Shown piece by piece: positions 26,192-63,662 of a stretch of DNA of 64,000 nucleotides. Under the pieces are notes generated by a model, which saw only the letters and a list, made by a program, of their open reading frames with translations, ran no database searches and was not told where the DNA came from. The DNA is from Odoribacter splanchnicus DSM 20712 (GTDB taxonomy: Bacteria > Bacteroidota > Bacteroidia > Bacteroidales > Marinifilaceae): the NCBI RefSeq assembly GCF_000190535.1, contig NC_015160.1, positions 4,278,001-4,342,000 of the forward strand, in the 5' to 3' direction. Every line of letters starts with the position of its first letter. Position 1 is the first letter of the stretch. Both the position numbers and the translations under genes were made by a program.

Positions 26192-26220
26192 CCTGCATGC
26201 ATAATAGCAGCCTGAGCCTC
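26185..26220 (-). pseudogene. Displaced 3' end of ppdK at the left junction
   Basis: The minus strand encodes EAQAAIMHAGK then TAA, followed by a good intrinsic terminator. The ppdK gene at 60939-63662 now ends AAAQAAIEE. The two ends share AQAAI in the same codon frame with only synonymous third-base differences. The simplest reading is that ppdK originally ended AQAAIMHAGK and the element inserted at this point. Confidence 0.6.
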
Positions 26221-26440
26221 ATTAATATAAATCTAATACTCAGATACTTAAAAGCTCATTGTAAGCTATTTGTAAGCGAATATTGATTTAATATTGTTTT
26301 AACCTTTCTCTAAAGGCACTAATATGACAACATTCTTAATTTTCAGACCCCTACATATTAATATAGGGTTTCATTACACTACTTTTAGATGCTAAACTAA
26401 CCTGCTCTTTATACATGTTAGTTATAATTGTATCCTTCCG

Positions 26441-26896
26441 TTATTGCCCCCTTTCTTTTAATAGTCTTATGATTTCGTCTTTATCATTCAAGTTGGAATC
26501 AAGACGGTTTATCTGCGTATTCAAATTATCAATCTGTTCTTTTAATAGCTTGATAATTTCTTTTTGAGATTCAACGACAGCCTGCTCTTTGGAAAGCTGT
26601 GTCGCAAGTTCATTATCACCAATAGTATTATGTGCATTACTGTTCAATGTGACAGCCGCAAGGTATGCGGATATTTGATGTGACATCGAGCAGAACAGCG
26701 CAAAGAAATTATAATCCAAGGCTTGGCTCACTTTGGCAAGTTTGCTGGTTTCCATTGTTTCCCGTTCAAGGATGCGATTGATATGTTGCTGGGGCACACC
26801 AATCCTGCGACCGAGTTCGGACTTACTAAGCCCAAGCTCATTGCGGCGTTTGTCAATCGCTTGCCCAATATGCACCAATTTTATGTCTATATCCAT
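26441..26896 (-). CDS. XRE-family transcriptional regulator with coiled-coil tail
   Basis: 151 residues. Residues 8-62 form a Cro/C1-type helix-turn-helix (LGLSKSELGRRIGVPQQHIN). Residues ~95-150 are a predicted coiled coil with heptad hydrophobics (IIKLLKEQIDNLNTQINRLD). It is divergent from the small genes at 27042 onward, as expected for a mobile-element repressor controlling the early genes. The target operator is not identified. Confidence 0.8.
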   Translation of the reverse strand: MDIDIKLVHIGQAIDKRRNELGLSKSELGRRIGVPQQHINRILERETMETSKLAKVSQALDYNFFALFCSMSHQISAYLAAVTLNSNAHNTIGDNELATQLSKEQAVVESQKEIIKLLKEQIDNLNTQINRLDSNLNDKDEIIRLLKERGQ

Positions 26897-26969
26897 AATA
26901 GAATCATCAATTATTAAAGATTAAATAGAAACTATCAAATAAATATTTGGCTATATAAACCTTTTTGTG

Positions 26970-26977
26970 TTACTTTG
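26970..26977 (+). promoter_or_regulatory. Bacteroidota-type -7 box upstream of the element's early genes
   Basis: TTACTTTG, one mismatch from TAnnTTTG, lies 65 bases upstream of the ATG at 27042 and on the far side of the divergent XRE gene start. A comparable sequence (GTTACTTTGTCGC) occurs at 57974 upstream of the decayed HTH gene. Confidence 0.4.
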
Positions 26978-27041
26978 CGAGCGTTAAAACTCACCTTGCT
27001 GAGTGCAAAGTTAAACATTAAATGTTAAACATCCAAAGATT

Positions 27042-27233
27042 ATGGTAGAAAACTTGGAAAAAATCCGTCCTGCCCTCACCGCCCTCGAAGTTGGCGATGC
27101 CGTCGTGTTCCCTATCTCACGTCTGAAAAGCGTCCGTACCCAAGCCTCTGAACTGGGTGCTATCTTCAATCGCAGATTCAAAACGAAAACCAACCGCGAG
27201 AACCAGACAATTACCGTTTCACGGATCTCTTAA
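27042..27233 (+). CDS. Small conserved mobile-element protein
   Basis: 63 residues: a helical acidic start, then VVFPISRLKSVRTQASELGA and a basic end (NRRFKTKTNRE) before ITVSRIS. I recognise the style of small proteins found in Bacteroides mobilizable elements, but no function is known to me. It follows the probable promoter at 26970 and precedes another small gene by 18 bases, in the same direction. The positive C-terminus would suit nucleic-acid binding; that is inference only. Confidence 0.6.
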   Translation: MVENLEKIRPALTALEVGDAVVFPISRLKSVRTQASELGAIFNRRFKTKTNRENQTITVSRIS

Positions 27234-27251: not shown

Positions 27252-27536
27252 ATGGCATCATTTCAGTTTATGGATCACCTTATATCCTATGACACATTCA
27301 TTAACGACCTTTCAGCCCGAATTGTCAGGTTGTTGAAATCAGACAACAATGATCCTGAGTTCATAAGCCAGCGCAAGGCTTATGAACTATTCGGGCGTAG
27401 AAATGTGGAGCGTTGGAAACAACAAGGGAAAGTGGTATCTTACAAACGTCCGGGGAAAGTTGAATACAGGACTGCCGACCTTCGACTTCTTCAACGTACC
27501 ACCCAGGATTATTTCAATAATTCCATTAAAAAGTAA
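27252..27536 (+). CDS. Small HTH-like mobile-element protein
   Basis: 94 residues. Residues ~45-80 (ISQRKAYELFGRRNVERWKQ and then GKVVSYKRPGKVEYR) have the layout of a MerR/excisionase-type winged helix: a helix-turn-helix followed by a short beta wing. The gene is the second in a run of small plus-strand genes leading to the primase-helicase. It may be a recombination directionality factor or regulator. The exact family is not certain. Confidence 0.55.
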   Translation: MASFQFMDHLISYDTFINDLSARIVRLLKSDNNDPEFISQRKAYELFGRRNVERWKQQGKVVSYKRPGKVEYRTADLRLLQRTTQDYFNNSIKK

Positions 27537-27709: not shown

Positions 27710-27913
27710 ATGAAAGAATTAAGACCGACATGTAACCCAAACGGCATTTATTCCGTCAAACAGACCTGTGCCGAATTGGGTATCAGCAACAAGACGCTGT
27801 ACAAATACAAAGAGTGTGGTTATATCAGACCGATTAACCCCACTAATGTTTGCCGCCCTAAATACACCGGACAATCAATCATTGATTGCTGGGACATTGT
27901 GAGTAAGTTATGA
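27710..27913 (+). CDS. Excisionase-like helix-turn-helix protein
   Basis: 67 residues with a MerR-like HTH: YSVKQTCAELGISNKTLYKYKE, then a wing (GYIRPINPTNVCRPKYTGQS). Such proteins act as excisionases or regulators in Bacteroidales mobile elements. The stop overlaps the start of the primase-helicase gene by 4 bases (ATGA), indicating translational coupling. A 173-base gap to the gene before shows no obvious feature. Confidence 0.7.
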   Translation: MKELRPTCNPNGIYSVKQTCAELGISNKTLYKYKECGYIRPINPTNVCRPKYTGQSIIDCWDIVSKL

Positions 27914-30900
27914 TTAGCGAGTCCACTATAAATAAAGTCAGGAATCTTCCCATCGAAAATGTCCTCAAACCATACGTTGAACTTTCAAAAAAGGGTTTGA
28001 CGTTAATGGGCTTGTGCCCTTTCCATTCGGAACGGACAGCCTCATTTTCCGTGACTGCCCATAAGAATCTTTTCCACTGTTTCAGTTGTAACCGTGGCGG
28101 TGATGCCATTACCTTTATCATGGAAAAGGAGAACCTTTCTTTTGGGGAGGCTATAAAGTTCATAGCAAAGAACCACAATATCCTCATAGAGTACATAGAT
28201 GAAGAACAAACGGATGAACAGAGAGCCGAGACCAGACACAAGGAGTCTTTGTTCGTTATCTTGGATTGCGTCCAGAAATACTTCTTGGAGAATCTGAGAA
28301 CAAACATGGGGAATGAAAGCCGGATGGCTCGTGATTACGCTTATGGCAGATGGACGGAAGAGTTCTGCTCCACAGCAGGAATAGGCTATGCTCCTAAAGA
28401 CGGGCATGACTTCATTGATTATTGCCGTAATAAATCTCTCAATGAAAAAGCCTTGTTTGAATTGGGACTGTTCAAACGTGGCGAAGATGGTAGTGTGTAT
28501 GCGATGTTTCGTCACCGTATCATGATTCCGATACGGAATAAATGGGGACGCATCATCGCTTACACCGCACGGTACATCGGTGAAAACAAGAATACCCCCA
28601 AATACATCAATTCGGCAACCAGTATTCTTTATTCCAAAGGGGAAACACTGTTCGGCATCGACCACGCCTATCGTCAACGTGACACGGATTATTATATTAT
28701 CGTAGAAGGTGCGCCGGATGTGCTTCGAATGCAACAGGTTGGTTTTGACAATACAGTTGCCACCCTCGGTACATCATGGAGTGAAAGCCAGTTCGACCAA
28801 CTGAAGCCATACACCTCCTCCTTATGTTTTATTCCTGATTCGGATGTAGCGGAAGGTAAAACCTTCGGGCCTGGATTTGAAGCGGTCATGACCAATGGGG
28901 CCGCCGCCATACGAAAAGGCTTCTATGTAACCGTTCGGGAATTGCCGTTCGCCCAACACCCTGCTTCGGGCGAAAAAATATTGAAGAACGATGCGGACAG
29001 CTATATCCGTTGTAGGGAAGATTACACATCGCTCAAAGAAAAGCATTTCATCGTATGGCTTGCCCAGAAACGTTTCTTGGTAGCCGATTCGCTGATGGAA
29101 GAACGGAAGTATGTGGCAGAGATAGCCGACCTGCTCCGCTACATCAAAGACCAGTTGGTGTTTGACCAATGTATCGGGCAACTGGCGAAACTTCACGGCA
29201 AGGTAAAACTTTGGCGTGATGCCGTGGTGCAAGCCCGTGGAGAGGCGAAGAAGAAGAGTGAGAAAGCATCCTCCATGAATGACTTGCAACGTGAAGCGGA
29301 ACTGTTGCGCCAATTCGGGTTGTTCATCCGGGAGAACTGCTACTACTCCACCGGAGAAGAGGAGGAAGATCCGGCCAGAATATCCAACTTCATCATGGAT
29401 CCGCTATTCCACATCGAAGATGAAAGCAACGGTACTCGTATTTTTCGTATGCGGAATATGTACAACGTGTGCCGTGTCGTTGAACTGAAGGAGTCCGAAC
29501 TATGTTCATTGAGCAACTTCCAGCAGAAAGTAGGCTCGTTGGGCAATTATGTATGGCTTGCCAAGATTGACAAGCTCAACCGTGTCAAAGAATACCTCTA
29601 TTCAAAAACAGACACGGCGGAACGCATCCGGAAATTGGGTTGGAACGCAAATGAGGATTTCTTTGCTTTCGGTAACGGCATCTTGACTGATGGCACGTTC
29701 AAGCCAGTCGATGAATTGGGAATTGTACGGGGTATCAATGGAAAAGCCTTCTACATCCCGGCAACCTCCAAAATTTACCTCCACAATCAAGAAGTATTCC
29801 AGTTTGAACGATTAATGATTCATGAGAACAGAAACGGAGTAAGACTTTTTGATTTTGTATCAAGGCTGACGGATGTATTTGGAGAGAATGCAAGAATCGC
29901 TTTTTGCTACTTGTTATCGACTCTTTTCCGGGACATTGTCTTTCGTCGTACCCGTCATTTCCCCATACTCAACCTGTTCGGTGAAAAAGGAACGGGTAAA
30001 ACCACGTTGGCGACATCGCTCCAGTCGTTCTTTTTGCACGGTATCGACCCACCCAATTTGGGTGTAACATCGGTACCGGCCATGAACGACCGGGTATCTC
30101 AGGCTGTCAATACATTGGTGGTATTGGACGAATACAAGAACGACCTCGACATTCGTAAGATAGCCTACCTCAAAGGACTTTGGGGAGGTGGCGGACAGAC
30201 AAAGAAGAACATCAATACGGATGGCATGGCTGCACAAACCATTGTCACCACAGGTGTAGCCCTTTGCGGACAGGACAAGCCCACCCAAGACATGGCACTC
30301 TACACCCGTGTCCTCTTCTTGGCTTTCTCAAAGACTTCGTTCAGCCAACAGGAGAAGCGTCAGTATGAGGATTTGGTTTCTACCTGCAATCTCGGTTTGA
30401 CGCATCTGACCATTGAGATATTAAGCCATCGCGGGCTATTTGAGAAAAATTTCCCGGAAATCTACTCCATCACCAAACGTGAGTTGGCGACCAAACTGGA
30501 AAATGAAGCCATCCATGACCGTATTTTCGGCAACTGGGTCATCCCTTTGGCCACCTTTCGCACCTTGGAAACCGCCATCAATGTGCCGTTCGGTTATGCC
30601 GAACTGTTTGATACGGCCATCCGTGGAGTACGCAATCAAAATGAACTGGCACAAGAGAGTTCCGAAGTGGCAGACTTTTGGAATATGCTTCAGGGATTCC
30701 AGACATCAGGGAAATGCATCGAACAGGCACATTACCGTATCCGGTATTTGAAAGCATTTCGTCCCCTGTCAGCCAGAGAAGATATAGAGTTTCAAGAGGC
30801 ACGTCCTATCCTCTATCTGAATACGGCAGCAGTGGCTTCATTGTTCAACAGCCGGAACATGAATACCACCGCCAATCGTTCCAACTGGTCTACCATCATA

Positions 30901-31137
30901 TCCTATCTGAAATCGCACTCCTCTTTCCTGGGCTTGAAACAAGACCGTTTCACCATCCTGCTACCGAGCGGATTGCCGGACTATTCGTTTGAGCTGATTA
31001 ATGGTGAACAAGTAAAGAAAGTGAAAGTCAACCGTCCCAAAGCCCTGTGTTTTGATTACCTACAACTGAAAGACTCTTTTGGATTGGATTTGGAAACGGA
31101 AGTAGTGACTGATACCCAAGATTCAGAAGATATGTAA
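27910..31137 (+). CDS. CHC2-type primase / P-loop helicase-like replication protein
   Basis: A 1075-residue multidomain protein. Residues ~35-65: zinc-binding CHC2 domain (CPFHSERTASFSV and FHCFSCNRGG). Residues ~95-245: DnaG-like catalytic N-part (RMARDYAYGRWTEEFCSTAG, FRHRIMIPIRNKWGRIIAYT). Residues ~260-345: TOPRIM (IIVEGAPDVLRMQQVGFDN, with CFIPDSDVAEGK). Residues ~690-800: P-loop ATPase (LFGEKGTGKTTLATSL Walker A; TLVVLDEYKNDLD Walker B). It would prime and unwind the element's DNA during replication or transfer. The size and fused domains suit mobile-element replication proteins. Start chosen by the 4-base overlap with the upstream gene. Confidence 0.88.
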   Translation: MISESTINKVRNLPIENVLKPYVELSKKGLTLMGLCPFHSERTASFSVTAHKNLFHCFSCNRGGDAITFIMEKENLSFGEAIKFIAKNHNILIEYIDEEQTDEQRAETRHKESLFVILDCVQKYFLENLRTNMGNESRMARDYAYGRWTEEFCSTAGIGYAPKDGHDFIDYCRNKSLNEKALFELGLFKRGEDGSVYAMFRHRIMIPIRNKWGRIIAYTARYIGENKNTPKYINSATSILYSKGETLFGIDHAYRQRDTDYYIIVEGAPDVLRMQQVGFDNTVATLGTSWSESQFDQLKPYTSSLCFIPDSDVAEGKTFGPGFEAVMTNGAAAIRKGFYVTVRELPFAQHPASGEKILKNDADSYIRCREDYTSLKEKHFIVWLAQKRFLVADSLMEERKYVAEIADLLRYIKDQLVFDQCIGQLAKLHGKVKLWRDAVVQARGEAKKKSEKASSMNDLQREAELLRQFGLFIRENCYYSTGEEEEDPARISNFIMDPLFHIEDESNGTRIFRMRNMYNVCRVVELKESELCSLSNFQQKVGSLGNYVWLAKIDKLNRVKEYLYSKTDTAERIRKLGWNANEDFFAFGNGILTDGTFKPVDELGIVRGINGKAFYIPATSKIYLHNQEVFQFERLMIHENRNGVRLFDFVSRLTDVFGENARIAFCYLLSTLFRDIVFRRTRHFPILNLFGEKGTGKTTLATSLQSFFLHGIDPPNLGVTSVPAMNDRVSQAVNTLVVLDEYKNDLDIRKIAYLKGLWGGGGQTKKNINTDGMAAQTIVTTGVALCGQDKPTQDMALYTRVLFLAFSKTSFSQQEKRQYEDLVSTCNLGLTHLTIEILSHRGLFEKNFPEIYSITKRELATKLENEAIHDRIFGNWVIPLATFRTLETAINVPFGYAELFDTAIRGVRNQNELAQESSEVADFWNMLQGFQTSGKCIEQAHYRIRYLKAFRPLSAREDIEFQEARPILYLNTAAVASLFNSRNMNTTANRSNWSTIISYLKSHSSFLGLKQDRFTILLPSGLPDYSFELINGEQVKKVKVNRPKALCFDYLQLKDSFGLDLETEVVTDTQDSEDM

Positions 31138-31803: not shown

Positions 31804-32766
31804 ATGAAAAAGAATTTTAGGTTTATGGCAATGGCCGTTGTAGCAATGGCCGCTACAGTATTCACAGGATGTTCGTCCGATGATGACTTTTTGATGGAAT
31901 CAATGGATTCCGTAACCACGCAAACCCGTTCCGTTACGTGGACATCTTATGAAATTGATTTCACGGATGTTCCTGCGGCCTATACCGCATCGGACAAGTA
32001 CGGAGCCAACCTTTATTCCGGCAGCTCAAGCCAGATTACTACCGGTTACATTCAGCAATTAGGAACGACGGGTACGTATATCCAATTCCCGATCAACTAT
32101 CTCCCGCAGGAATGGGAATCCGGACAACCGTGGCGCTATGAGTTCCATAACGGAGGTTTGGCTGTTTCTAATTTCACCGATATTACCGATGGCTCTTATC
32201 TGAACCAATGCAGTGTATACAATAATGGGAAAGCTGGTTACGACAATGACAAATTCGTCGTGGCTTTCGGCTATAGCGACTGGTATAATGACCCGGATAC
32301 GACCTATGACAAATGTGCTAAAATTTATTTGACAGATGCCACAGGTTATAGGGTTACAACAGTAGGAAGTCCTGTAACCGGTACTGCAAAATCAGGATGT
32401 TTCAATAGCGTTCGGGTTTGTAATACGACCTACGGACATCTGGTGATGGAAAATGGAAACGCCTTCACTTCCGGCTCACTCAGTTCTCAGAACGGATGAT
32501 TCAAAGTCCGGTTTATCGGGTTTAATGCGAATAACGTGAAGACAGGTACGGTAGATTTCTACCTGGCCAATTTCGATTCTTCGCTAATAACCATATCTGG
32601 ACTTGACAATGAAATCCGAGAGGGATGGCAAGAAGTCGATTTAACCGGTCTGGGTAACAATGTCAGCACAGTGGTTATTAACTTTGTCGGTAGTGATACC
32701 GGGAATTACGGTTTGAACACTCCTGCATACTGCGCTTTGGATAATCTGTCTGTTTCACTGAACTAA
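31804..32766 (+). pseudogene. DUF4465-like surface lipoprotein with an in-frame TGA
   Basis: The first gene of operon 1. It starts MKKNFRFMAMAVVAMAATVF with lipobox TGC followed by SSDDDF. After 231 codons a TGA occurs at 32497-32499. The same frame then continues 88 more codons (FKVRFIGFNANNVK to ALDNLSVSLN) and matches the C-terminus of the intact paralog at 56308-57225, including SDTGNYGLNTPAYC against SDSGAYGLNTPAYI. A single TGG-to-TGA change would explain it. DUF4465 proteins are secreted beta-rich proteins often next to B12 uptake genes; their role is unproven. The truncated product would lack the conserved C-terminal motif. Confidence 0.8.
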
Positions 32767-32778
32767 TAGCAATCAGTT

Positions 32779-34560
32779 ATGAAAAAAGTTTTTCCGATTG
32801 TTTTCGCATTTGTCTTTTTGCTTTCGTGCAACAAAGACGATGAAATAACCCGGGAGGTTGGCAACCAACCACCCGTTATCGAACTCGATAGCGAAACGGG
32901 TATTTATATCACCAAGATAGGTAAGGAAGTTACAATAAACCCTAATTATTCGAATGTCGATTTTGCCGTTTATTCATGGAAATGTAATGGCAGGATCATC
33001 TCGGAAGAACCTTCTCTGGTTTATACTTTCGACCAGCCTGACTCTTATTACGTAATTATTCGCGTGGATACTCCCGATGGCAGTTCCGAAGAAGAAATTC
33101 GTATCGATGTCAGCGAACTGGCCCCACCGAAAATCTCGTTGGTATTGCCTTCCAGCGGTTTAAAGATCAGAGCAGGAAGGGAGTATAAATTATCTCCAGA
33201 TGTGCAAAATGCCGAGAATGCCACTTTTCTGTGGACAATTAACGGTGAAGAAGTAAGCACGGAAAAAGACATCGTTTTCACCCGGCAAGAAATGGGAGAT
33301 TACAAATGTCGGCTTTATGCAGAGAATGAAGACGGAAGCGATACGAAAGAGTTTGTTATAAGCGTTGTCGATCAGTTGCCTATAGAGGTGACATTCGTAG
33401 CCCCGTCCTTTTACACAGAACAATTGGTGAAATACGTGGAACTGGGTAAGACGCTGTACCTGCGTCCCTATGTCAATGCGGGAGCTGAATCCTACTCTTG
33501 TTCATGGAGTTTGAATAATGAGCCTATTGACGGGGCCAATTCTTTATTATACGCTTTTACACCGGAGGCGGAAGGCGATTATACCCTTACGGTCACTGTT
33601 TCGTGTGAAGATGCAGTACCGGCAGCACAACGTCTTACGCGTAATATCGCGGTGACGGGGTCGGATAAGGTGTCCGTAGACATTCCTGTAAAATGCCTGC
33701 CTGCCGGCACTGGCAAAAAACGCCCTTATGCTGCCGGAAATTCTTTAGTGTCTGACAAAGTATATGAATTTATCCCGGCTCCGGGACAATTCGTTAACGA
33801 GACTTCGAAGGCCGGGTATAGCGGGGAATCGACGCATGAAGCAGCCATTCTCTATGCAGAGAACAGGCTTGCAAAAAATCTCTATGTATCATTGGGCGCA
33901 TGGGGCGGATATATCGTTGTCGGTTTCGACCATAGCATTGAAAACAAGGGAGGATACGATTTCTCTATCATGGGCAACCAGTTCGACACCTCGAACGAAC
34001 CGGGCATTGTGTTCGTGATGCAGGATGTCAATGGCAACAGGGAACCCGATGACGAATGGTATGAACTGAAAGGTTCCGAATACGGTAAGGAGGAAACAAT
34101 CCAGTTTTATGCTGTCACCTATTACCGCCCTGCCGCAAAAGGGTTTGACACACAATGGACCGATAACCAGGGAAAAACTGGTTGTGTGGATTACTTGGGA
34201 ACCTACCATCCGCAGCCTTTTTATTATCCGGAGTGGATTGAGGAAGATTCGTACACGCTCTACGGTCCGCGGCTGGCATCGAGGACAGTATATGCCGGGC
34301 CGGGCAACTGGCAGAACCTGCCGTTCGATTGGGGCTATGTCGACAATGTGGGCAGCGATATGGTCGATAAGGACAATCCTTCCGCAAATGCTGTGAAAAA
34401 TTATTTCAGGATATCGGATGCCGTGAATCCCGATGGCAGTGCGGCCAACCTCTCCCATATCGATTTTATCAAGGTTCAGACGGGAGTGAACGCCAAAGCC
34501 GGATGGCTCGGGGAAAATTCAACGGAAGTGTTCGGTTTTACAGATGAAAACAATAAATAA
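32779..34560 (+). CDS. PKD/Ig-like cell-surface lipoprotein of B12 operon 1
   Basis: 593 residues with lipobox LLSCNKDDE (~17). Residues ~30-300 consist of about three PKD/Ig-like beta domains (IELDSETGIYITKIGKEVTI, EGDYTLTVTVSC). The C-terminal ~270 residues form a separate domain (GGYIVVGFDHSIENKGGYDF, DVNGNREPDDEWYELKGSEYG). It has exactly the same length as its paralog at 54462-56243, and identical motifs. Its place between the DUF4465-like and L-domain genes under a cobalamin riboswitch suggests a surface accessory protein for cobamide capture. Direct B12 binding is not shown by the sequence. Confidence 0.8.
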   Translation: MKKVFPIVFAFVFLLSCNKDDEITREVGNQPPVIELDSETGIYITKIGKEVTINPNYSNVDFAVYSWKCNGRIISEEPSLVYTFDQPDSYYVIIRVDTPDGSSEEEIRIDVSELAPPKISLVLPSSGLKIRAGREYKLSPDVQNAENATFLWTINGEEVSTEKDIVFTRQEMGDYKCRLYAENEDGSDTKEFVISVVDQLPIEVTFVAPSFYTEQLVKYVELGKTLYLRPYVNAGAESYSCSWSLNNEPIDGANSLLYAFTPEAEGDYTLTVTVSCEDAVPAAQRLTRNIAVTGSDKVSVDIPVKCLPAGTGKKRPYAAGNSLVSDKVYEFIPAPGQFVNETSKAGYSGESTHEAAILYAENRLAKNLYVSLGAWGGYIVVGFDHSIENKGGYDFSIMGNQFDTSNEPGIVFVMQDVNGNREPDDEWYELKGSEYGKEETIQFYAVTYYRPAAKGFDTQWTDNQGKTGCVDYLGTYHPQPFYYPEWIEEDSYTLYGPRLASRTVYAGPGNWQNLPFDWGYVDNVGSDMVDKDNPSANAVKNYFRISDAVNPDGSAANLSHIDFIKVQTGVNAKAGWLGENSTEVFGFTDENNK

Positions 34561-34561
34561 T

Positions 34562-36784: not shown

Positions 36785-36801
36785 GCATAACTTTTTACCA
36801 T

Positions 36802-37866
36802 ATGAAATACCTGATACGACATATCGTCTTGCTGTGCGGGCTGCTGCTGGCGGGCTGCATGAAGTGGGACTACGGCGATACCGTGGAGGATTTCAACGCC
36901 ACGGGAGCCGGACTGTTCATTACCAACGAGGGCAATTTCCAGTACGGCAATGCCTCGCTGAGCTACTACGACCCGGAGACCAAACAGGTGCAGAACGAAA
37001 TCTTCTTCCGAGCCAACGGCATGAAGCTCGGCGACGTGGCACAGTCAATGATCATCCACGACAACAAAGGCTGGGTCGTGGTGAACAACTCCCACGTTAT
37101 TTTTGCCATCGACCTGAACACCTTCAAGGAGGTGGGACGCATCGAGAATCTGACCTCGCCGCGCTATATCCATTTCCTGAGCGACGAGAAAGCCTACGTC
37201 ACCCAGCTGTGGGACAACCGCATCTTCATCATCAACCCGCGAACGTATGAAATCATCGGACATATTCAGGTGCCGGACATGACGATGGAAAGCGGCTCGA
37301 CGGAGCAGATGGTGCAGTACGGGAAATACGTCTATTGCAACTGCTGGAGTTACCAGAACCGCATCATCAAAATCGACACCGAGACCGACCAAGTTGTCGA
37401 TGAACTGAAAATCGGCATCCAACCCACATCGCTGGTCATGGACAAGTATAACAAGATGTGGACGATTACTGACGGCGGCTACGAGGGTAGCCCCTACGGT
37501 TACGAAGCCCCCTCGCTCTACCGCATCGACGCCGAGACTTTCACCGTGGAGAAGCAGTTCAAGTTCAAGTTGGGCGACTGGCCCTCGGAGGTGCAACTCA
37601 ACGGCGACGGAACGAAGCTCTACTGGCTCAACAAGGATGTGTGGCAGATGGACGTCACGGCAAACCGTATCCCTGTCCGCCCGTTCCTTGAGTATCAGAA
37701 CACGCTGTATTACGGACTGACGGTAAACCCTGCCAACGGAGAGGTGTACATCGCCGATGCCATCGACTATCAGCAGCAGGGCATGATTTACCGCTACTCG
37801 CCCGACGGCGAACTGATTGATGAATTTTATGTCGGGATTATCCCTGGTGCATTCTGTTGGAAATAA
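36802..37866 (+). CDS. btuG: BtuG, surface B12-binding beta-propeller lipoprotein
   Basis: 354 residues with lipobox LAGCMKWDYGD (~18). The body is a seven-bladed beta-propeller of the YncE type (GAGLFITNEGNFQYGNASLS, NKGWVVVNNSHVIFAIDLNT, KAYVTQLWDNRIFIINPRTY). BtuG proteins bind cobalamin very tightly at the Bacteroides surface and cap BtuB; this is established for B. thetaiotaomicron BtuG2. The gene directly precedes btuB, as in known loci. From here to btuD the DNA is markedly more GC-rich than the genes before it, suggesting a different recent origin. Confidence 0.9.
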   Translation: MKYLIRHIVLLCGLLLAGCMKWDYGDTVEDFNATGAGLFITNEGNFQYGNASLSYYDPETKQVQNEIFFRANGMKLGDVAQSMIIHDNKGWVVVNNSHVIFAIDLNTFKEVGRIENLTSPRYIHFLSDEKAYVTQLWDNRIFIINPRTYEIIGHIQVPDMTMESGSTEQMVQYGKYVYCNCWSYQNRIIKIDTETDQVVDELKIGIQPTSLVMDKYNKMWTITDGGYEGSPYGYEAPSLYRIDAETFTVEKQFKFKLGDWPSEVQLNGDGTKLYWLNKDVWQMDVTANRIPVRPFLEYQNTLYYGLTVNPANGEVYIADAIDYQQQGMIYRYSPDGELIDEFYVGIIPGAFCWK

Positions 37867-37879
37867 GGAAGGAGGCAAT

Positions 37880-39970: not shown

Positions 39971-39980
39971 CGATAAGAAA

Positions 39981-49119: not shown

Positions 49120-49130
49120 ATTGATGCAGA

Positions 49131-51209: not shown

Positions 51210-51227
51210 TTTTGTCCTCCTTCCTCG

Positions 51228-52301: not shown

Positions 52302-52313
52302 TCGGATAAAAAA

Positions 52314-52339: not shown

Positions 52340-52356
52340 TGGTTAAGGTATAAGGT

Positions 52357-54447: not shown

Positions 54448-54461
54448 ACTTGTAATTTTTA

Positions 54462-56243
54462 TTATTTGGTTAGATCCTCAAAAGAAAATACCTCCGTAGA
54501 AACTTCGCCCAGCCAGCCGCTTTTGGCCAGAACACCGCATTGTATTTTGATAAAGTCAATATATTGCAGATTGGCTTCCGTTCCATCGGCATGGATGGCA
54601 TTGGAAATTTTGAAACCGTTCCTTTGTCCGCTTCCATCCACCGTACTGCCGCCTTCTATCTGGTCGTTTCCGAAATTATCCACGTACCCCCAGTCATAAC
54701 TCTGATTATCCCAATAACCGGTTTGAGAATCTTGGGTGTTGCGGGCGGCCAGACAAGTGCCTGTCAGGGTATAACTGTTTTCCGAAATCCAAGCCGGATA
54801 ATAATAGTCTTGTGTATGATAAGCGGACAGATAGTCTACCCAGCCGTTTCTACCGTCGGAACTGATCCATTGGACATCCATTTTTTTGCCTTCCGGACGG
54901 TAATAGGTCACTTCAAAATTCTGTATTGTTTCTTCCTTGCCTGCTTCAGATCCTTTCAGTTCGTACCACTCGTCATCCGGCAATCCGTTTCCGTTTATAT
55001 CTTGCATGACCCATACGATACCCGGTTCGGAACTGCCGTCAAAGGCGTTCCCCTGAACACAGAAATCATATTGGTTACCCGAATTGGGAATACTGTGGTC
55101 GAAGCCGACGATGATATAACCCCCGAAAGAACCTAAAGAGACGTGCAGTTTGTCTTTCAAACGCTGTGTTGCCCATGCGACAGCCGCTTCAGGGGATGTT
55201 TCGTTGCCGGTCATACCGCCTATCGTGCTCGTCTCGTTGATAAATTGGCCGGGAGCTGGGGTATATTCATAGACTTTATTCCAGAGCTTGGAACTTCCCG
55301 AAGCCCGGAAGCCGTCTTGTTCCTTTTTGTCCACACAAACGACTTTTACGGTGGCAGTGACAGCCGTTTTCCCTTTGTCGATATTCCTGCTTATTTTTTC
55401 CGTCGGTGTGTCTTCCGACACAGTACAGGAGACGGTGTATTCTCCGGGTGCGGACGGCGTGAACTTGAACATGCGTTCCACTTCTCCTTCCATGACCTGA
55501 CCGTCCACACTCCACTCAAAACGGGGATTGTCGAAATACTCCAACAACGGACGCAGGAAAACAGGACGGTCGGCAAAAGTGTACCTGTCCGTGGATGTTT
55601 GCAGGTAAGACGGGGTCGGGAATTTGACAACGTAGGGCATCGTTTCCACGACCTCTACGCTTACGTCTTTCGTTGTTGTCCCATCTATATTGGAAGCGTT
55701 GATTGTCACCGTATAAACACCGAGTTCTTTTTCATTGAAAGTATAAGTATTCTCGGTGGAAACGATTTTTCCTTCCCGTACCCATTCGATTTTGAACCCT
55801 TCGACATCCGAATGCTGAATATCGGGAGTAAATGTGTAATCGGTATTCCGGACGACTTTTAGCCCCTGCGAAGGTAGTGCCAGTGAGATGACCGGAGGGG
55901 TGAGTTCTTTCACTTCTACTTTCAGTTCCTCTTCGGCATAGCCTTCCGCATTGTCTACTCTTAGTTTGACATAAAAATCCCCGCATTCATTCCATGTACG
56001 TTGAAGAGACGGACCCGAAGAAACCAGCGTACCGTCTATCGTCCAAGCAAAAAGAGCATCTTCAACATTCTGGTATGTCGGGGCGATAGTCAATTCGTGA
56101 TCGACCTTGACCGTGTAAATACCGGTCTCGCTGTCAAGTTCTATTATAGGTTGTCCTCCTACTTCTTCGGTAATGACTTCATCCTTGTTGCAGGAGGTGA
56201 ACAGCATACAGGCAGAAATAATAAAATAGTGAAAACGATGCAT
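54462..56243 (-). CDS. PKD/Ig-like cell-surface lipoprotein of B12 operon 2
   Basis: 593 residues, the same length as the operon 1 copy. Lipobox LFTSCNKDEV (~18), then IELDSETGIYTVKVDHELTI and further PKD/Ig-like domains up to ~300. The C-terminal domain contains GGYIIVGFDHSIPNSGNQYD and DINGNGLPDDEWYELKGSEA. The EF-hand-like run DINGNGLPDDEW could bind calcium; this is also conserved in the other copy (DVNGNREPDDEW). It is the second gene of operon 2, after the DUF4465-like gene and a hairpin. Confidence 0.8.
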   Translation of the reverse strand: MHRFHYFIISACMLFTSCNKDEVITEEVGGQPIIELDSETGIYTVKVDHELTIAPTYQNVEDALFAWTIDGTLVSSGPSLQRTWNECGDFYVKLRVDNAEGYAEEELKVEVKELTPPVISLALPSQGLKVVRNTDYTFTPDIQHSDVEGFKIEWVREGKIVSTENTYTFNEKELGVYTVTINASNIDGTTTKDVSVEVVETMPYVVKFPTPSYLQTSTDRYTFADRPVFLRPLLEYFDNPRFEWSVDGQVMEGEVERMFKFTPSAPGEYTVSCTVSEDTPTEKISRNIDKGKTAVTATVKVVCVDKKEQDGFRASGSSKLWNKVYEYTPAPGQFINETSTIGGMTGNETSPEAAVAWATQRLKDKLHVSLGSFGGYIIVGFDHSIPNSGNQYDFCVQGNAFDGSSEPGIVWVMQDINGNGLPDDEWYELKGSEAGKEETIQNFEVTYYRPEGKKMDVQWISSDGRNGWVDYLSAYHTQDYYYPAWISENSYTLTGTCLAARNTQDSQTGYWDNQSYDWGYVDNFGNDQIEGGSTVDGSGQRNGFKISNAIHADGTEANLQYIDFIKIQCGVLAKSGWLGEVSTEVFSFEDLTK

Positions 56244-56268
56244 GATGTGTGGATTTTAGAAAAATAAC

Positions 56269-56298
56269 AGGGATACCCCCGACAGAAGGGATATCCTT
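56269..56298 (-). terminator. Hairpin between the DUF4465-like and PKD-type genes
   Basis: An inverted repeat (GGATACCCC 56271-56279 with GGGATATCC 56288-56296, one mismatch) is followed on the minus strand by TGTTATTTTT. It may act as a partial terminator that favours expression of the first gene. Confidence 0.55.
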
Positions 56299-56307
56299 GT
56301 ATTCTTT

Positions 56308-57225
56308 TTATTGTATGGTGATATCATCAATACAGATATAAGCCGGAGTATTCAAACCGTATGCTCCCGAATCCGAACCCTCGAAGTTGAATTTCACACT
56401 TTGCACCCCTTCGGCATTGATTTCCCAATAATCCCATGTCGTGATAGGATCAACCTGTTGTTGGCCGTTACGATAATCGGCTAAAAGACGTTTGTAAGTG
56501 CGGATCAGACCGCCATTCGCATCATAACATTCCAGATTCACTTGGAAATACCCTTTCATCTCTTTCAGAGGAGTCGCTACCCCCGTAGAACCGAACTGAT
56601 TACCATAAGTAATGACACCATAAGTGTATGAGGTGTTGCAGATCCACAGGCCGACCAATTTCCGGGGAACATTGAAATAAAATTCTGGTTTAGCCATCCA
56701 TGCCTGATTGTAAGCATCCACATATCCGTAAACGACACCGAAATTGGAACCGCTGTGCCCGGCTTCCTTATTCTGTCCTTCCGCTTCCACCGCAGTGTTA
56801 TAGACAGAACATTGGTTTAGATAAGAATACCACCAGTCTCCGGTATTTCCCGACTGATTGGAGCGGATGTTCCAGTTGGAAAGTGCGATGCCGCCGCTGG
56901 AATACTCTGTGCTTCCACCTACAGTATTAAACATTGAAAGGAAGAGATATTCTTCCGGAGTATTGTCGTAAATGGTGGTTACTTGAGGATACCCTTGGTA
57001 CGAATAAAGATTTTCTCCGGCCGAGGTAGGTCCTGCTAACATGCCGGGATCGAAATCATCGAAAGTGATAGTTAAAGTACCGTCCGGATTTGTCACAGCA
57101 CGGGTTTGCGAAGTTCCGGAATCAACCGGGTCCATCAAAAAGTCATCGTCCGAGCTACAGCCAGAGAACAAGGCGGTTGCGGTAAATAGACAGGCACCTG
57201 CCAGAAAGCGTAATTTTCTTTTCAT
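56308..57225 (-). CDS. DUF4465-like surface lipoprotein of B12 operon 2
   Basis: 305 residues, intact. Signal MKRKLRFLAGACLFTATALF with lipobox SGC followed by SSDDDFLMDPVD. The beta-rich body contains GGIALSNWNIRSNQSGNTGD and ends SDSGAYGLNTPAYICIDDIT, typical of DUF4465. The first gene after the riboswitch and its terminator. The operon 1 paralog has a stop codon at the position where this protein reads on, so this is the only complete copy. A role in B12 capture is inferred from context. Confidence 0.8.
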   Translation of the reverse strand: MKRKLRFLAGACLFTATALFSGCSSDDDFLMDPVDSGTSQTRAVTNPDGTLTITFDDFDPGMLAGPTSAGENLYSYQGYPQVTTIYDNTPEEYLFLSMFNTVGGSTEYSSGGIALSNWNIRSNQSGNTGDWWYSYLNQCSVYNTAVEAEGQNKEAGHSGSNFGVVYGYVDAYNQAWMAKPEFYFNVPRKLVGLWICNTSYTYGVITYGNQFGSTGVATPLKEMKGYFQVNLECYDANGGLIRTYKRLLADYRNGQQQVDPITTWDYWEINAEGVQSVKFNFEGSDSGAYGLNTPAYICIDDITIQ

Positions 57226-57823: not shown

Positions 57824-58030
57824 GCACCAGAAATTAATCCTATAAATTTATGGAAAACAAGTAAGGGAATGGAAGTTCCGTTGCCGCATGGATGCAGGTG
57901 AAGGACCTTCTCTTTTAACGTTGGATACGCCAATGCACGCCAACGGAAGACTCTGATATTATCTGTTTGGAAAGGATATAGGATGTGCGTTACTTTGTCG
58001 CATATTCAGAATCTTAAAAAGAATTTTAGT

Positions 58031-58178
58031 ATGGAACTGACAATTATTGAAACAAGCGCGTATTAGGAGTTGAGAAAGCTGGTCAGCACGCTGGTCGTAC
58101 AGATGGGCGACTTCCAGAAAAAGATTGCCCCGCCTGCGCCGGACAAGTGAATGGATGCGCAGGACGTATGTGATGGAC
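58031..58178 (+). pseudogene. Decayed HTH/excisionase-like gene
   Basis: The frame from ATG 58031 reads MELTIIETSAY, a stop, ELRKLVSTLVVQMGDFQKKI, a stop, then MDAQDVCDGL. This matches the style of Bacteroides mobile-element HTH proteins, which start M(E/D)xTIIxxxAYEELxK and later contain W(M/L)DxQDVCxxLGIS. The HTH itself is absent because the sequence runs into the inverted integrase remnant at about 58175. Confidence 0.6.
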
Positions 58179-59270
58179 TTATGCCCAAACACTTTCTGAA
58201 GAGTTTCCAGCAGCATCCCCTTGAGTATGGCCAGAACGGCAAATGCGTGGCGTCCGATGTGCGGGGTGACCTCGCCCCGGAGTTGCATTTCCTGCCTATG
58301 ATTCCAAGACTGAGCCGCATGGCATTGTATTCACCTACCGGAAAGACACATTCGGGGAGTCTTTCTTTTCATCCGTACCCCTATATTTTTCAATCAGTTC
58401 GATAGCAATGGGCAATAATTTTACGACATACGCCACTCCCGTTTTTATACGGTTGCCCATCAGCCATGTACCACCGTCGGAGTCGGTATGGATATTATCG
58501 TATGTTATGGCTTTCAAGTCCACATAGGAAAGACCGGTGAAGCACATGAACAGGAACATGTCGCGCATGGCACGCTGGCGTTTGTATCTCGGTTCTATAT
58601 GGATTATCCTTTGCAGTTCCTCTTCGGAAAGGAAAGAACGCCTCTTGTATTCGGGCATACACTCGAATGATGCGAACGGATGAACCCGTATCCAGCCTTT
58701 TTCCTGCGCGATATACATCAGCCACTTCAAGGTATTGACACGCCCGAAGACAGTGGAGTTTGCCAAAGCGCATGTACCGAGCATCCAGTTGTAGTAATCC
58801 TCGATGAATGATTTCTCAAGTTCTTCGATGACAATATCCTCTGCATTCTTCTTGCTTTTCATGAAAAGCAGGAGACTCTTGTAATCGGCAACCAGACCGC
58901 AGTAGGTGCTTTCGGCTTTCTCTATGCCGATTTTCTTTTTATACGGTTCCAGCTGTTCCCTGAAAAGGTTCATAAGGGTGTGGCATTCCTCTGAGAAGCC
59001 GACATAGCGGTTATAGACTTTCTTGGCTGTAACAAAACTGTCGTGGTCGCAGATGTACTGGTAGTGCCTGGTGATTTGCGCCTTGATATTGTCAAGCTCC
59101 TGATTGAGTGTACGGGCCTCCTCGGACTTGCCTTTGGCCCGGTTGGTTTTGACGTCCCACAAAGCGAGGGACACTTCTTTCTTACAACTGAAACCGGCTT
59201 GGGTTCCATTGATGGTGATACGGCCCATAATCGGTGTCTTTCCGTTTTTTACAGACTGTTTATTCTCAAA
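58176..59270 (-). pseudogene. Tyrosine recombinase (integrase), frameshifted and truncated
   Basis: An uninterrupted stretch (59228-58335) covers the SAM-like core domain (LNQELDNIKAQITRHYQYIC) and the first catalytic part (RDMFLFMCFTGLSYVDLKAI). The rest, with TPHIGRHAFAVLAILKGMLL and ETLQKVFGHKSI (the HxxR motif), is only readable after frame changes at about 58330 and 58290. The reading also extends upstream of the first ATG (KNGKTPIMGRITINGTQ). The catalytic Tyr is lost at the junction with the HTH remnant. It is not functional. Confidence 0.8.
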
Positions 59271-59657: not shown

Positions 59658-60719
59658 TTAGATAGAGATTGTATGATGTTTCGCGGTATAAAAACGATAG
59701 CAATCATCTTTTGTCATACCCATATCTTTGCATATCTTCCGAATACCGATATTTACATTGGCGTTGAAACTGTCCGAATTGCTGTATCTACTATGAAAGT
59801 TAAACAGGTATTCTTCATTTTCATCAGTAGAAAGATACTTGTCAAAGGTGGATTGGATAAAAGGCTCAACTCTCATTTCCATATATCCCTCGTCTCGGCG
59901 ACTGTTCCGAACCTTTGCTCTCTTATAGCTAATGATACCATTGCGGTAATTTGTCTTTTTAAGCTCATACAGGTCAACGGAATTCATTCCACCTAAACAA
60001 ATAGAAAGGAGTGCTACGTCTCTTCCCAGTTCCGGCAGGGATGAAATCATTTTGCTTACAGGGAGCGGTCGATTGAAGAACTCACGACAAGCCTCCGCAC
60101 TGATGGCCCGCTTTAAAGTTGTGTCTGCCTTGGGAATTTTAATCTTATGCCAAGGATTGAACTTGATACGCACTATGTCACGCTCCTCGTCGTTGTACTC
60201 CGTTATCGCACTGTTAAAGATTTGCCGGATGCAAGTAGGGTACATTTCTTTGGCTCTGTTGGTCAAAGCAAGAGACTCAATCCACTTTTTCAATACAGTG
60301 GATGACATATGCCCAAACATGATTTGGGTTGTTCCCAGATAGCGTTCAAGATGGCAGACGGCAAGTTTGTAGTTCTTTGCGGTACGGTCTCGCCCCTCTG
60401 ATTCAATCTTTCTGATGAAAAATTGAGCATATTCGCTAAAGCAGAGTTCTTCATCTGCCTTTAGCAAATAATCTACGACTTCGCTGACGCTCCAAAGAGA
60501 AGCATCAACTCTGTTCAGCCGGTCACTGTATTGCCTGATGATCATGGCACAGAATTCATTCACTACCGGGTCTGTAATTTCACCATTAGATACATGGTTC
60601 GCATCGACAATTTTATCTGTCTTGATGTAACCGGGCTTGCGGTTGTGTACGATTCGGATGTACACTGAGTAAAGACCGTCTGTTCTCGGCTTTCTCACCA
60701 TTGCTTTTAATGTTGTCAT
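59658..60719 (-). CDS. Tyrosine recombinase (integrase), C-terminally truncated
   Basis: 353 residues. Arm-binding/N-terminal domain ~1-95, SAM-like core ~98-195 (FSEYAQFFIRKIESEGRDRT) and catalytic domain from ~215. The region ALLSICLGGMNSVDLYELKK is the Bacteroidales variant of the first catalytic motif. The protein stops at RFYTAKHHTISI, exactly where relatives continue through HTWATIA, the second Arg and the nucleophilic Tyr. About 55 residues appear missing, so catalytic activity is unlikely. It is the recombinase next to the right junction and probably once integrated the element. Confidence 0.8.
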   Translation of the reverse strand: MTTLKAMVRKPRTDGLYSVYIRIVHNRKPGYIKTDKIVDANHVSNGEITDPVVNEFCAMIIRQYSDRLNRVDASLWSVSEVVDYLLKADEELCFSEYAQFFIRKIESEGRDRTAKNYKLAVCHLERYLGTTQIMFGHMSSTVLKKWIESLALTNRAKEMYPTCIRQIFNSAITEYNDEERDIVRIKFNPWHKIKIPKADTTLKRAISAEACREFFNRPLPVSKMISSLPELGRDVALLSICLGGMNSVDLYELKKTNYRNGIISYKRAKVRNSRRDEGYMEMRVEPFIQSTFDKYLSTDENEEYLFNFHSRYSNSDSFNANVNIGIRKICKDMGMTKDDCYRFYTAKHHTISI

Positions 60720-60765
60720 ACTTTTTGAATTTTAATTTTACTGCTGCAATAGGCTTTTTCCTTGG

Positions 60766-60816
60766 TGTAAGCAGGTGTAAGCAACGGGTAATTTGGTGTA
60801 AGCATAGTGTAAGCAA
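60766..60816. repeat. Four direct repeats GTGTAAGCA (probable integrase arm sites)
   Basis: GTGTAAGCA occurs at 60766-60774, 60776-60784, 60797-60805 and 60808-60816, just upstream of the integrase start and about 140 bases from the right junction. Two related TGTAAGC copies stand at 26260-26266 and 26271-26277 near the left junction. This is what arm-type binding sites of a tyrosine recombinase would look like. Confidence 0.65.
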
Positions 60817-60873
60817 ATACGTTCATTTGGCTCATTTTTTGCGGTCAAATGTACGAACCGCCCAAGCGCAAAT

Positions 60874-60912
60874 CAGGCTGTAATTACCGCTAAAGCAGTG
60901 AATTACAGCCTG
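60874..60912 (-). terminator. Present-day ppdK terminator hairpin
   Basis: A 12-bp perfect inverted repeat (CAGGCTGTAATT with AATTACAGCCTG) around a 15-base loop lies 27 bases after the ppdK stop, inside the mobile element side of the junction. There is no T-run, so its efficiency is uncertain. Confidence 0.6.
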
Positions 60913-60938
60913 ATATTAAGAATGTTTATATTAGAGTG

Positions 60939-63662
60939 TTATTCCTCTATTGCTGCCTGAGCCGCGGCTACGCGGGCGATGGGCACGCGGAACGGTGAAC
61001 AGCTGACATAGTTCATACCTACTGAGTCGCAGAAGATGACGGATGAAGGTTCTCCACCGTGTTCTCCACAGATACCTACTTTCAGGTCTGCATTAGTCTT
61101 ACGACCCAGTTTCACACCCATTTCAACCAGACGGCCTACACCTTCCTGATCCAATACAGCGAACGGATCGGTTTTCAGGATACCTTTCCTGATGTATTCC
61201 GGTAAGAATTTGCCGGCGTCGTCACGGGAGTAACCGAAGGTCATCTGAGTCAGGTCGTTGGTACCGAATGAGAAGAATTCGGCTACTTCGGCGATCTGAT
61301 CTGCGGTGATAGCGGCACGCGGGATTTCGATCATCGTACCTACTTTGTAATCTACTTTAACGCCTTTTTCTTCGAATACCATAGCTGCAACACGGTTGAT
61401 GATTTCAGCCTGCTGTTTCAGTTCTTTCACAGTACCTACCAAAGGAACCATAATTTCCGGACGAGGATCCAGACCACGCAGTTTCAGGTTACAAGCTGCT
61501 TCGATGATCGCACGGGCCTGCATTTCGGTGATTTCCGGATAGGTAACTCCCAAACGGCAGCCACGATGACCCAGCATCGGGTTGAATTCGTGCAGTGCAT
61601 CTACTTTTTCTTTGATACGTTCTACCGGAATTCCCAGTTTCTGAGCCATATATTGTTGTGAAGCCGGTTCGTTCGGAGTAAATTCGTGTAAAGGTGGGTC
61701 GAGCAGACGGATGGTAACCCCCAGTCCGTTCATGGCTTCGAGGATACCTTCGAAGTCTCCCCGCTGCATCGGCAGGATCTTGTTCAGTGCATCCCGGCGT
61801 CCTTCTACCGTGTCGGACAGGATCATTTCACGCATAGCGTCGATACGGTGTCCTTCGAAGAACATATGTTCTGTACGGCAAAGTCCGACACCTTTGGCTC
61901 CGAAGTCACGGGCTTTACGGGCATCTTTCGGGGTATCGGCATTAGTACGTACATACATACGGGTATATTTTTCAGCCAGGTTCATGATGGCTGTGAAGTC
62001 TTCGTCCAATGTTGCATCTTCTGTTTCTACTTTTCCTAAATAAACTTCACCGGTAGAACCGTTCAGGGAAATCCAGTCTCCTTCTTTGATGATTGTTCCG
62101 TTTACGGAGAAATTACGTTTGGCATAATCGACTACGATATCTCCTGCGCCGGATACACAACATTTACCCATACCACGGGCAACGACAGCTGCGTGAGAAG
62201 TCATACCACCGCGTGCGGTCAGGATTCCTTCGGATACGTTCATACCCCGCAGGTCTTCGGGAGAAGTTTCCTGGCGTACCAGAACCACTTTTTCACCTCT
62301 GTTTTTCCATTCTTCGGCTTCGTCGGCGAAGAATACGACACGCCCGCAGGCAGCACCCGGAGAAGCCGGCAGACCTTTGGTAATAACGTGAGCTTTTTTC
62401 AGAGCTTCTTTATTGAATACCGGATGGAGCAGCTCGTCCAATTTAGCCGGTTCCTGACGCAACAAAGCTGTTTTTTCATCGATCATACCTTGTTTCAGCA
62501 TATCGACAGCCATTTTCACCATAGCGGCTCCGGTACGTTTTCCGTTACGGGTCTGTAACATCCACAGCTTACCGTCCTGGATGGTGAATTCCATATCCTG
62601 CATATCGTGGAAGTGGTCTTCCAGTTTTTCCTGTACAGCGTTCAGGTCGGCATAAGCCTGAGGCATAGCTTCTTCCAGCGAAGGATATTTGGAAGCACGT
62701 TCTTCTTCGGAAATACCCTGCAGTTTAGCCCAACGGCGTGAACCCTCGATGGTGATTTCCTGCGGTGTACGGATACCGGCTACAACGTCTTCCCCCTGTG
62801 CATTGATCAGGTATTCTCCGTTGAAGATGTCTTCTCCGGTTGCAGCGTCACGGCTGAAAGCAACACCGGTAGCCGAATTGTTACCCATGTTACCGTAAAC
62901 CATAGACTGTACGTTAACAGCAGTACCCCATTCTTCCGGGATCTGGTTCAACTGACGGTACAGAACGGCACGTTCGGTCATCCATGAATCGAATACGGCA
63001 CAGATGGCTCCCCACAGCTGTTCCCACGGACAAGTCGGGAAATCTTTGCCGGTTTTGGTTTTGACTACTTTTTTGAAGTTTTCGACCAATACCTGCAAAT
63101 CTTCAACGGTAAATTCAGTATCTTGTTTGATATGTTTGGCTTCTTTCAGCTTGTCGATTTCAACTTCGAACGGATTGTGCTCGCCTTTTGCTGCTGCTAC
63201 ACCCATTACAACATCGCCGTACATCTGAATAAAACGACGGTAAGAGTCCCAGGCAAAACGGGCATTTCCTGATTTTTCTGCCAGTAATTTTACGGCATCG
63301 TCATTCAATCCCAGGTTCAGCACGGTGTCCATCATACCCGGCATAGAAACACGGGCACCGGAACGTACGGATACCATCAACGGGAAAGCCTCTCCTTTAG
63401 AACCGAATTTTGCATTCATGATTTTTTCCATGTGTGCAATACCGGCTTTAACGTCGTTTTCTATTAATTTTACAACAGCATCTTTACCTTTCTGGTTGTA
63501 AAGTGTACAAACTTCAGTGGTAATCGTGAAACCTGCAGGTACAGGCAGGCCGATCAGGTTCATCTCCGCCAGGTTGGCGCCTTTACCACCGAGCAGATTT
63601 TTCATGTCTGCCTTGCCTTCTGCTTTTCCGTCTCCGAATGTGTAAACGTACTTCGTACTCAT
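60939..63662 (-). CDS. ppdK: Pyruvate, phosphate dikinase
   Basis: 907 residues, normal for the family. It interconverts pyruvate + ATP + phosphate and phosphoenolpyruvate + AMP + pyrophosphate in the cytoplasm, important in Bacteroidales glycolysis/gluconeogenesis. The N-terminal ATP-grasp domain begins with LLGGKGANLAEM. The phosphohistidine motif is GGMTSHAAVVARGMGK (~460). The C-terminal TIM barrel contains CRTEHMFFE, MLGHRGCRLGVTYPEI and GICGEHGGEP, with the active Cys-His region intact. The last residues (AAAQAAIEE) appear to be supplied by the mobile element inserted at this gene end. Enzyme function should be preserved because the change lies after the conserved barrel. Confidence 0.97.
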   Translation of the reverse strand: MSTKYVYTFGDGKAEGKADMKNLLGGKGANLAEMNLIGLPVPAGFTITTEVCTLYNQKGKDAVVKLIENDVKAGIAHMEKIMNAKFGSKGEAFPLMVSVRSGARVSMPGMMDTVLNLGLNDDAVKLLAEKSGNARFAWDSYRRFIQMYGDVVMGVAAAKGEHNPFEVEIDKLKEAKHIKQDTEFTVEDLQVLVENFKKVVKTKTGKDFPTCPWEQLWGAICAVFDSWMTERAVLYRQLNQIPEEWGTAVNVQSMVYGNMGNNSATGVAFSRDAATGEDIFNGEYLINAQGEDVVAGIRTPQEITIEGSRRWAKLQGISEEERASKYPSLEEAMPQAYADLNAVQEKLEDHFHDMQDMEFTIQDGKLWMLQTRNGKRTGAAMVKMAVDMLKQGMIDEKTALLRQEPAKLDELLHPVFNKEALKKAHVITKGLPASPGAACGRVVFFADEAEEWKNRGEKVVLVRQETSPEDLRGMNVSEGILTARGGMTSHAAVVARGMGKCCVSGAGDIVVDYAKRNFSVNGTIIKEGDWISLNGSTGEVYLGKVETEDATLDEDFTAIMNLAEKYTRMYVRTNADTPKDARKARDFGAKGVGLCRTEHMFFEGHRIDAMREMILSDTVEGRRDALNKILPMQRGDFEGILEAMNGLGVTIRLLDPPLHEFTPNEPASQQYMAQKLGIPVERIKEKVDALHEFNPMLGHRGCRLGVTYPEITEMQARAIIEAACNLKLRGLDPRPEIMVPLVGTVKELKQQAEIINRVAAMVFEEKGVKVDYKVGTMIEIPRAAITADQIAEVAEFFSFGTNDLTQMTFGYSRDDAGKFLPEYIRKGILKTDPFAVLDQEGVGRLVEMGVKLGRKTNADLKVGICGEHGGEPSSVIFCDSVGMNYVSCSPFRVPIARVAAAQAAIEE

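Follow-up and report, generated by a model that had tools for sequence, protein, structure and literature searches.

The 3′ end of ppdK, the gene for pyruvate phosphate dikinase, in Odoribacter splanchnicus DSM 20712 very probably received an integrative element of the PvCTn family, which replaced the last codons of the gene and has since decayed. The element, 34.8 kb long, occupies positions 26203 to 60962 of the window, the 64,000-nucleotide stretch that was analyzed (NC_015160.1, positions 4,278,001 to 4,342,000, in a complete genome of 4,392,288 bp); coordinates below are those of the window. An earlier note on this DNA had proposed an element inserted in frame into ppdK at an attachment site with no described example. 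The junction coordinates and reading frames were as claimed, and relatives in the genus carry the tail found at the left junction. The site itself is already described: Ortanez and Degnan (2024; PMC11005914) report PvCTn (about 75 kb) and relatives at the same place in ppdK. That paper counts 19 conjugative transposons and five other elements at the site in 10 genomes, with related integrases, gives a 20-bp attB motif, GYSGCNCARGCKGCHRTHGA, states that the stop codon is regenerated within three residues, and demonstrates PvCTn transfer.

Both junctions were read on the minus strand. The right junction, ...GCCGCGGCTCAGGCAGCAATAGAGGAATAA, encodes AAAQAAIEE and a stop, the present end of ppdK. 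The left junction, ...GAGGCTCAGGCTGCTATTATGCATGCAGGTAAGTAATAA, translates to EAQAAIMHAGK with two stop codons, and a hairpin comes next. On re-reading, the two junction 15-mers mismatched only at three third codon positions, as the earlier note had said.

60939 to 63662, minus strand: ppdK, 907 amino acids (aa), ending AAAQAAIEE, the last codons apparently from the element.
60948 to 60962, minus strand: right junction core, GCTCAGGCAGCAATA; 19/20 positions of its 20-base stretch agree with the published attB motif.
26203 to 26217, minus strand: left junction core, GCTCAGGCTGCTATT; 17/20 to the same motif.
26185 to 26217, minus strand: displaced native ppdK tail (AQAAIMHAGK plus stop).

The native state was judged from seven other genomes of the genus. 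In five of them (L082, L083, L085, L089, and L090) ppdK ends AAIMHAGK or AAIMHAKK, in contrast with AAIEE in the window. The L083 sequence and the left junction also share DNA past the stop, TAATAAG.ATTTATTACAAGCTTAAATA, and ppdK encodes 910 aa in L082 and L083 versus 907 aa in the window, a stop regenerated within three residues. The left junction is therefore the native ppdK end, now displaced, and the right junction the end supplied by the element. We read the segment as DNA inserted in frame inside ppdK with exchange of the tail, because the left junction holds the native ending of the genus and matches L083 beyond the stop. The native terminator that the earlier note expected downstream of ppdK in relatives was found in part, as L083, and only L083, matches the DNA leading up to the hairpin. 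Gene order downstream was uninformative: in stretches from six relatives (three longest open reading frames [ORFs] each), only L089 had matches, which fell at two distinct sites in the window, both distant from ppdK.

In the opposite reading, AAIEE would be native, and the tail at the left junction would be there by chance or through duplication of a fragment. AAIED and AAIEE are indeed the two commonest endings in ppdK loci chosen by ppdK alone (13 of the 79 read). The IMHAGK/IMHAKK ending in five of the seven genus genomes and the continuation of left-junction DNA into the L083 downstream sequence make that reading extremely improbable, and AAIEE was ruled out on these grounds as the native ppdK end of the strain.

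Replacement of the tail is unlikely to harm the enzyme, judging from the lengths of ppdK endings. Among 79 endings read from the 80 loci chosen by ppdK alone, 3 to 6 residues follow the conserved ...AAAQA in 72, 7 residues in two, and 10 to 30 in five.

Each of the two gene ends is followed by a hairpin.

26129 to 26157, minus strand: native hairpin with a U-run after the displaced tail, −14.7 kcal/mol; the DNA from stop to hairpin matches L083.
60874 to 60912, minus strand: stronger hairpin borne by the element behind the new ppdK stop, −27.9 kcal/mol, z-score −6.5.

With shuffles that preserved base composition alone, 1 of 200 was as good as the left hairpin and 0 of 200 as good as the right one. 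A consensus terminator scan called neither junction hairpin a terminator, so the exchange of terminators proposed in the earlier note is supported only in part.

The combination of a short tail, a stop, and a hairpin recurs in related elements. From 107 loci tried (the window included), 89 right ends were used, and 18 were dropped where the integrase start or a short-tailed core was not found; L177 and L189 were excluded as lying on the same contigs as L007 and L006. The 89 ends represent 86 distinct sequences (identical pairs L016/L155, L132/L133, and L248/L255). Their cores were picked for a stop within 13 codons, so that short tails in this set reflect selection and are not a result. The commonest endings were AAIED (37), AAVEE (13), and AAIEE (12); the tail of L156 was wrongly read in this set, its true reading being HAVGVK. 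Of the 89 ends, 85 passed a stem score cut-off that 4 of 267 shuffled stretches also reached. Stems of the AGG type, with 9 or more of 11 positions paired, were present in 86 of 89; they took 35 distinct forms, and compensatory changes among them were numerous, a pattern conditional on the stems having been chosen for pairing. The right ends of the window element and L233 share 91% identity over 163 bp. At L013 and L069, ppdK has a tail and hairpin of the element type and no integrase match in the available downstream DNA; these loci are possible fossil right ends.

Both ends of the element carry modules assigned to the PvCTn family. Behind the right-end hairpin lies an integrase gene, followed by pieces of another.

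59658 to 60719, minus strand: truncated tyrosine integrase, 353 aa, without the C-terminal part of the catalytic domain.
58335 to 59228, minus strand: N-terminal part of a second, different integrase remnant.
57959 to 58288, minus strand: C-terminal piece of the second remnant (PF00589, E = 6.5e-4, below the curated cut-off).

Intact members of the first integrase's family are mostly about 497 aa long; in the window copy, both the RHTW-motif region and the C-terminal extension are missing. Of the integrases compared, the nearest are those of L228, where the gene is adjacent to ppdK, and L233 (both 76%); identity to the integrase of genome G1173 is 69%. We take G1173 to be Phocaeicola vulgatus ATCC 8482, and its locus L270 to be the published one, from matching ORF lengths and genome size. 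The left-end ORFs of L270 are 149, 105, and 63 aa long, the lengths given for BVU3433, BVU3432, and BVU_RS21835 in PMC11005914. The far end of the window element has homologs of all three and a primase, in the order seen in L270.

26441 to 26896, minus strand: BVU3433-like helix-turn-helix regulator, 151 aa (PF01381).
27042 to 27233, plus strand: small BVU_RS21835-like ORF, 68% identical across 57 residues to a 63-aa L270 ORF.
27252 to 27536, plus strand: small BVU3432-like protein, 94 aa; 65 to 82% in seven element left ends.
27910 to 31137, plus strand: DnaG-type primase, 1,075 aa.

The regulator is 53% identical to the 149-aa ORF of L270, 54% to its counterpart in L274, and 73 to 75% to those in L271 to L273, L275, and L278. 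The 94-aa protein, 65% identical to the corresponding L270 ORF, had no Pfam match at E 1e-3. The primase has 67 to 81% matches, two with internal stops, in all nine genomes searched that carry the integrase clade in the family of genome G171, which was taken as Bacteroidaceae; in three relatives from the window's own genus the matches were 32 to 35% and covered the first third. In genomes with both genes on one contig (G1173, G1129, G992, G1062, and, for one of its two integrases, G960), integrase and primase point toward each other just as they do in the window. The presence of recombinase, arm, and regulator/primase modules inside the element is supported; what the earlier note called an excisionase corresponds better to the BVU3432-like protein known from the PvCTn family.

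The window element resembles PvCTn (PMC11005914) in its gene and place, in imperfect direct repeats, in a stop within three residues, in a related integrase, and in a BVU3433/BVU3432/BVU_RS21835-like regulatory region at the far end with a primase close by. It differs in the truncated integrase (353 of about 497 aa), in the lack of recognized conjugation genes, and in size (34.8 kb versus about 75 kb). The native sites of the genus also depart from the published motif: five score 18/20, all departing at the last two bases, and the occupied L084 site scores 20/20. Odoribacter and Muribaculaceae are not named in the main text of that paper. According to the paper, loci stripped of nearly all genes needed for conjugation hold three of 22 BVU3433 homologs, and the window locus may be one of them.

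Elements with this integrase are concentrated in certain families. Four of the 80 loci chosen by ppdK alone (L004, L006, L007, and L016) have an integrase just downstream, at 52 to 67% identity. Among the matches listed in an order-wide search of 393 genomes, G032 was the only other genome above 50% identity; the clade therefore appears concentrated and not universal. In the family of G032, taken as Muribaculaceae, the G032 integrase found 74 places in 66 of 397 genomes (E ≤ 1e-60). At 61 of them a ppdK 3′ end precedes the integrase in the same orientation, and the integrase starts 193 to 326 bases past the ppdK stop in the 24 of these with the full integrase in the fetched stretch. At ten of the other 13 places, a tail, stop, and hairpin accompany a core-like site outside ppdK, in several with the end of another element upstream; two are contig edges with part of a core, and one is a 34%-identical outlier with nothing. 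In the G171 family, the clade occurs at 31 places in 27 of 301 genomes, adjacent to ppdK in 23 of the 30 loci fetched; the other seven comprise one after a run of N, one with a core outside ppdK, one 38% match elsewhere, and four at or near contig ends. In the family of G312 (101 genomes), there were five places in four genomes, all at ≤44% identity and none beside ppdK. Two of the records, L006 and L012, are titled Lachnoclostridium sp. and Staphylococcus sp.; their ppdK genes are 73 to 74% identical to that of the window, L006 also has a ppdK integrase, and the assemblies are probably mislabeled.

Short repeats were found inside the element next to both junctions, in agreement with the arm-like repeats proposed earlier.

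60766 to 60814, plus strand: right arm, TGTAAGC four times (60766, 60776, 60797, and 60808).
26260 to 26277, plus strand: left arm, TGTAAGC twice (26260 and 26271), 11 bases apart; the left ends of L020 and L270 are alike.

The heptamer has 12 matches in the window, against a chance mean of 5.35, and six of the 12 are at the two ends of the element, all on the plus strand. The window left end is 72% identical over 92 bp to that of L020, which runs straight into a core and right end. Arms were analyzed in 88 of the 89 right ends, with 47 nonredundant integrases. In right ends, a short repeat occurs three to six times in the interval from hairpin to integrase, and the motif varies among elements; 74 of 88 reached a repeat score reached by 0 of 88 shuffles. 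Arm motifs were more alike where the N-terminal domains of the integrases were more alike (r = 0.50, and 0.45 as a partial correlation given the catalytic domain; 0 of 999 permutations as high). For the catalytic domain, r was 0.26 and the partial correlation −0.10 given the N-terminal domain. Arm repeats thus covary with the N-terminal domain and not with the catalytic domain once the N-terminal domain is allowed for, with shared ancestry handled solely by conditioning on the catalytic domain.

These data are best explained by the following history. A PvCTn-family element entered the ppdK 3′ end in an ancestor of the strain by tyrosine-recombinase exchange within the core GGCTCAGGC; the exact crossover point is inferred. 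The crossover linked the host gene to the right end of the element, with its last codons (AAIEE), stop, and hairpin, while the original ending (codons for AAIMHAGK, stop, and terminator) came to lie beyond the other end of the insertion. With codons and a stop supplied by the right end, the ppdK enzyme stays open. Later, in an order that can only be suggested, the integrase gene shed its C-terminal part, and the conjugation genes disappeared or gave way to a pair of B12-type uptake loci and AbiL-like genes. The outcome is an island that is now probably fixed.

Several observations weigh against this history. Native tails were not exact in two genus genomes: L087 ppdK ends AALIHSK and L084 ppdK ends AAVEDTL, although L084 seems to hold another element of this kind, because the DNA after its ppdK is 85% identical to the window right end over 103 bp, where the contig stops. 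The native ending is read from other species of the genus. The right hairpin, a putative terminator, has no U-run, and PvCTn showed transcriptional readthrough at both junctions after transfer (PMC11005914). A second, unrelated integrase remnant lies in pieces inside the element. By eye, left and right arm motifs agree in G1173, G1129, G903, and G921 and disagree in three of seven comparison genomes (G992, G1062, and G960), where the differing arms are probably due to tandem elements.

Tandem arrangement also offers an alternative for the window itself, in which two or more ppdK-site elements collapsed and left ends of different origin at the two junctions. Tandem cores and arrays in several relatives, the second integrase remnant at 57959 to 59228, and the present 34.8 kb compared with the roughly 75 kb of PvCTn (PMC11005914) would fit such an origin. 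The heptamer TGTAAGC is, however, common to the left and right arms, and by eye the left end resembles those of G1173 and G903, whose right arms carry TGTAAGC. We consider a collapsed tandem rather unlikely and favor insertion of a single PvCTn-family element.

Between its end modules the inserted element carries the following cargo.

31804 to 42850, plus strand: B12-type uptake locus 1 (DUF4465, PKD protein, Receptor-L, DUF5074/BtuG-like, TonB receptor, and Btu/Fec-type ATP-binding cassette [ABC] transporter).
43114 to 45147, plus strand: AbiLi/AbiLii-like pair (AAA_21 and RloB).
46244 to 57225, minus strand: B12-type uptake locus 2, an inverted paralogue of locus 1.

The paralogues are 73 to 85% identical in five of eight gene pairs and 26 to 47% in the other three. 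Both hold domain types of a BtuB-like TonB receptor, a BtuG-like DUF5074 protein, a BtuFCD-like ABC transporter, and DUF4465, and B12 is their putative substrate; NCBIfam BtuB/C/F models matched locus 1, the copy scanned, below their cut-offs. The two inverted loci flank the AbiL-like pair (31804 to 57225), and G+C reaches 0.53 to 0.59 at 37 to 43 kb, the window maximum. Outside the element, one further gene was noted.

24522 to 26084, plus strand: IS1634-family transposase, just beyond the left junction, ending about 45 bp past the native ppdK hairpin.

The element is probably an immobile, decayed PvCTn relative, because its integrase is truncated and no conjugation gene was recognized. Among 27 element proteins scanned, none had a Pfam match to a relaxase or type IV secretion system; the remainder of the genome lay outside this search. 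An element whose ends, arms, and cores look intact might still be mobilized in trans by another integrase and transfer system of the cell. When the full-length G1173 integrase was searched against the host genome (E ≤ 1e-10), however, the sole match was the truncated copy (residues 1 to 353), and this, with the lack of recognized transfer proteins among the scanned element ORFs, makes mobilization in trans improbable.

Smaller units also occur in tandem with ppdK elements. Core-to-core units of 115 to 140 bp, each with a ppdK core, a short tail and stop, usually two arm-like sites, and then the next core, were seen in L020, L139, L144, L152, L161, L170 to L172, L231, L238, and L275 as well as in L271 to L273. 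They were measured at spacings of 60 to 260 bases in the stretches retrieved around the loci, L271 to L273 being read separately. At nine of 14 places the size was 125 to 129 bp despite divergent sequence and arm motif. Relative to the element, the units are on the ppdK side in L231 and L238 and on the far side in L271 and L273. A tentative and rather doubtful interpretation is that they are minimal nonautonomous att cassettes moved by ppdK integrases, which would make the ppdK 3′ end a growing array with each unit resupplying the gene ending. Related full elements also occur in tandem at ppdK: in G429:C1 (L205 to L209), a second core lies about 21.5 kb past the first, and the right-end sequences behind the two agree at 44 of the 45 bases shown.

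Elements that provide a replacement 3′ end of a metabolic gene are known from phage 21 and e14 in Escherichia coli icd; the gene, integrase, and element type are different here. Conjugative transposons bearing B12 transporters, such as BoCTn (Frye et al. 2021, as cited in PMC11005914), are likewise mobile DNA with a B12-type uptake locus, of which the window element carries two inverted paralogous copies. As far as literature searches show, the reach into this genus and Muribaculaceae, the tail-plus-hairpin cassette, the covariation of arms with the N-terminal domain, and the mini-units are new, the last three not having been searched by name.

A described integration system here reaches another genus, whose native sites depart from the published attB motif. 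The element itself can turn the C terminus of a central metabolic enzyme from the form of one lineage into that of another, and its cargo fits published work on mobile B12 transporters of gut Bacteroidota. With a shared target gene, dozens of integrases, arm repeats that change along with the arm-binding domain of the integrase, and a portable tail plus hairpin, the loci compared form a natural data set on what such a domain recognizes.

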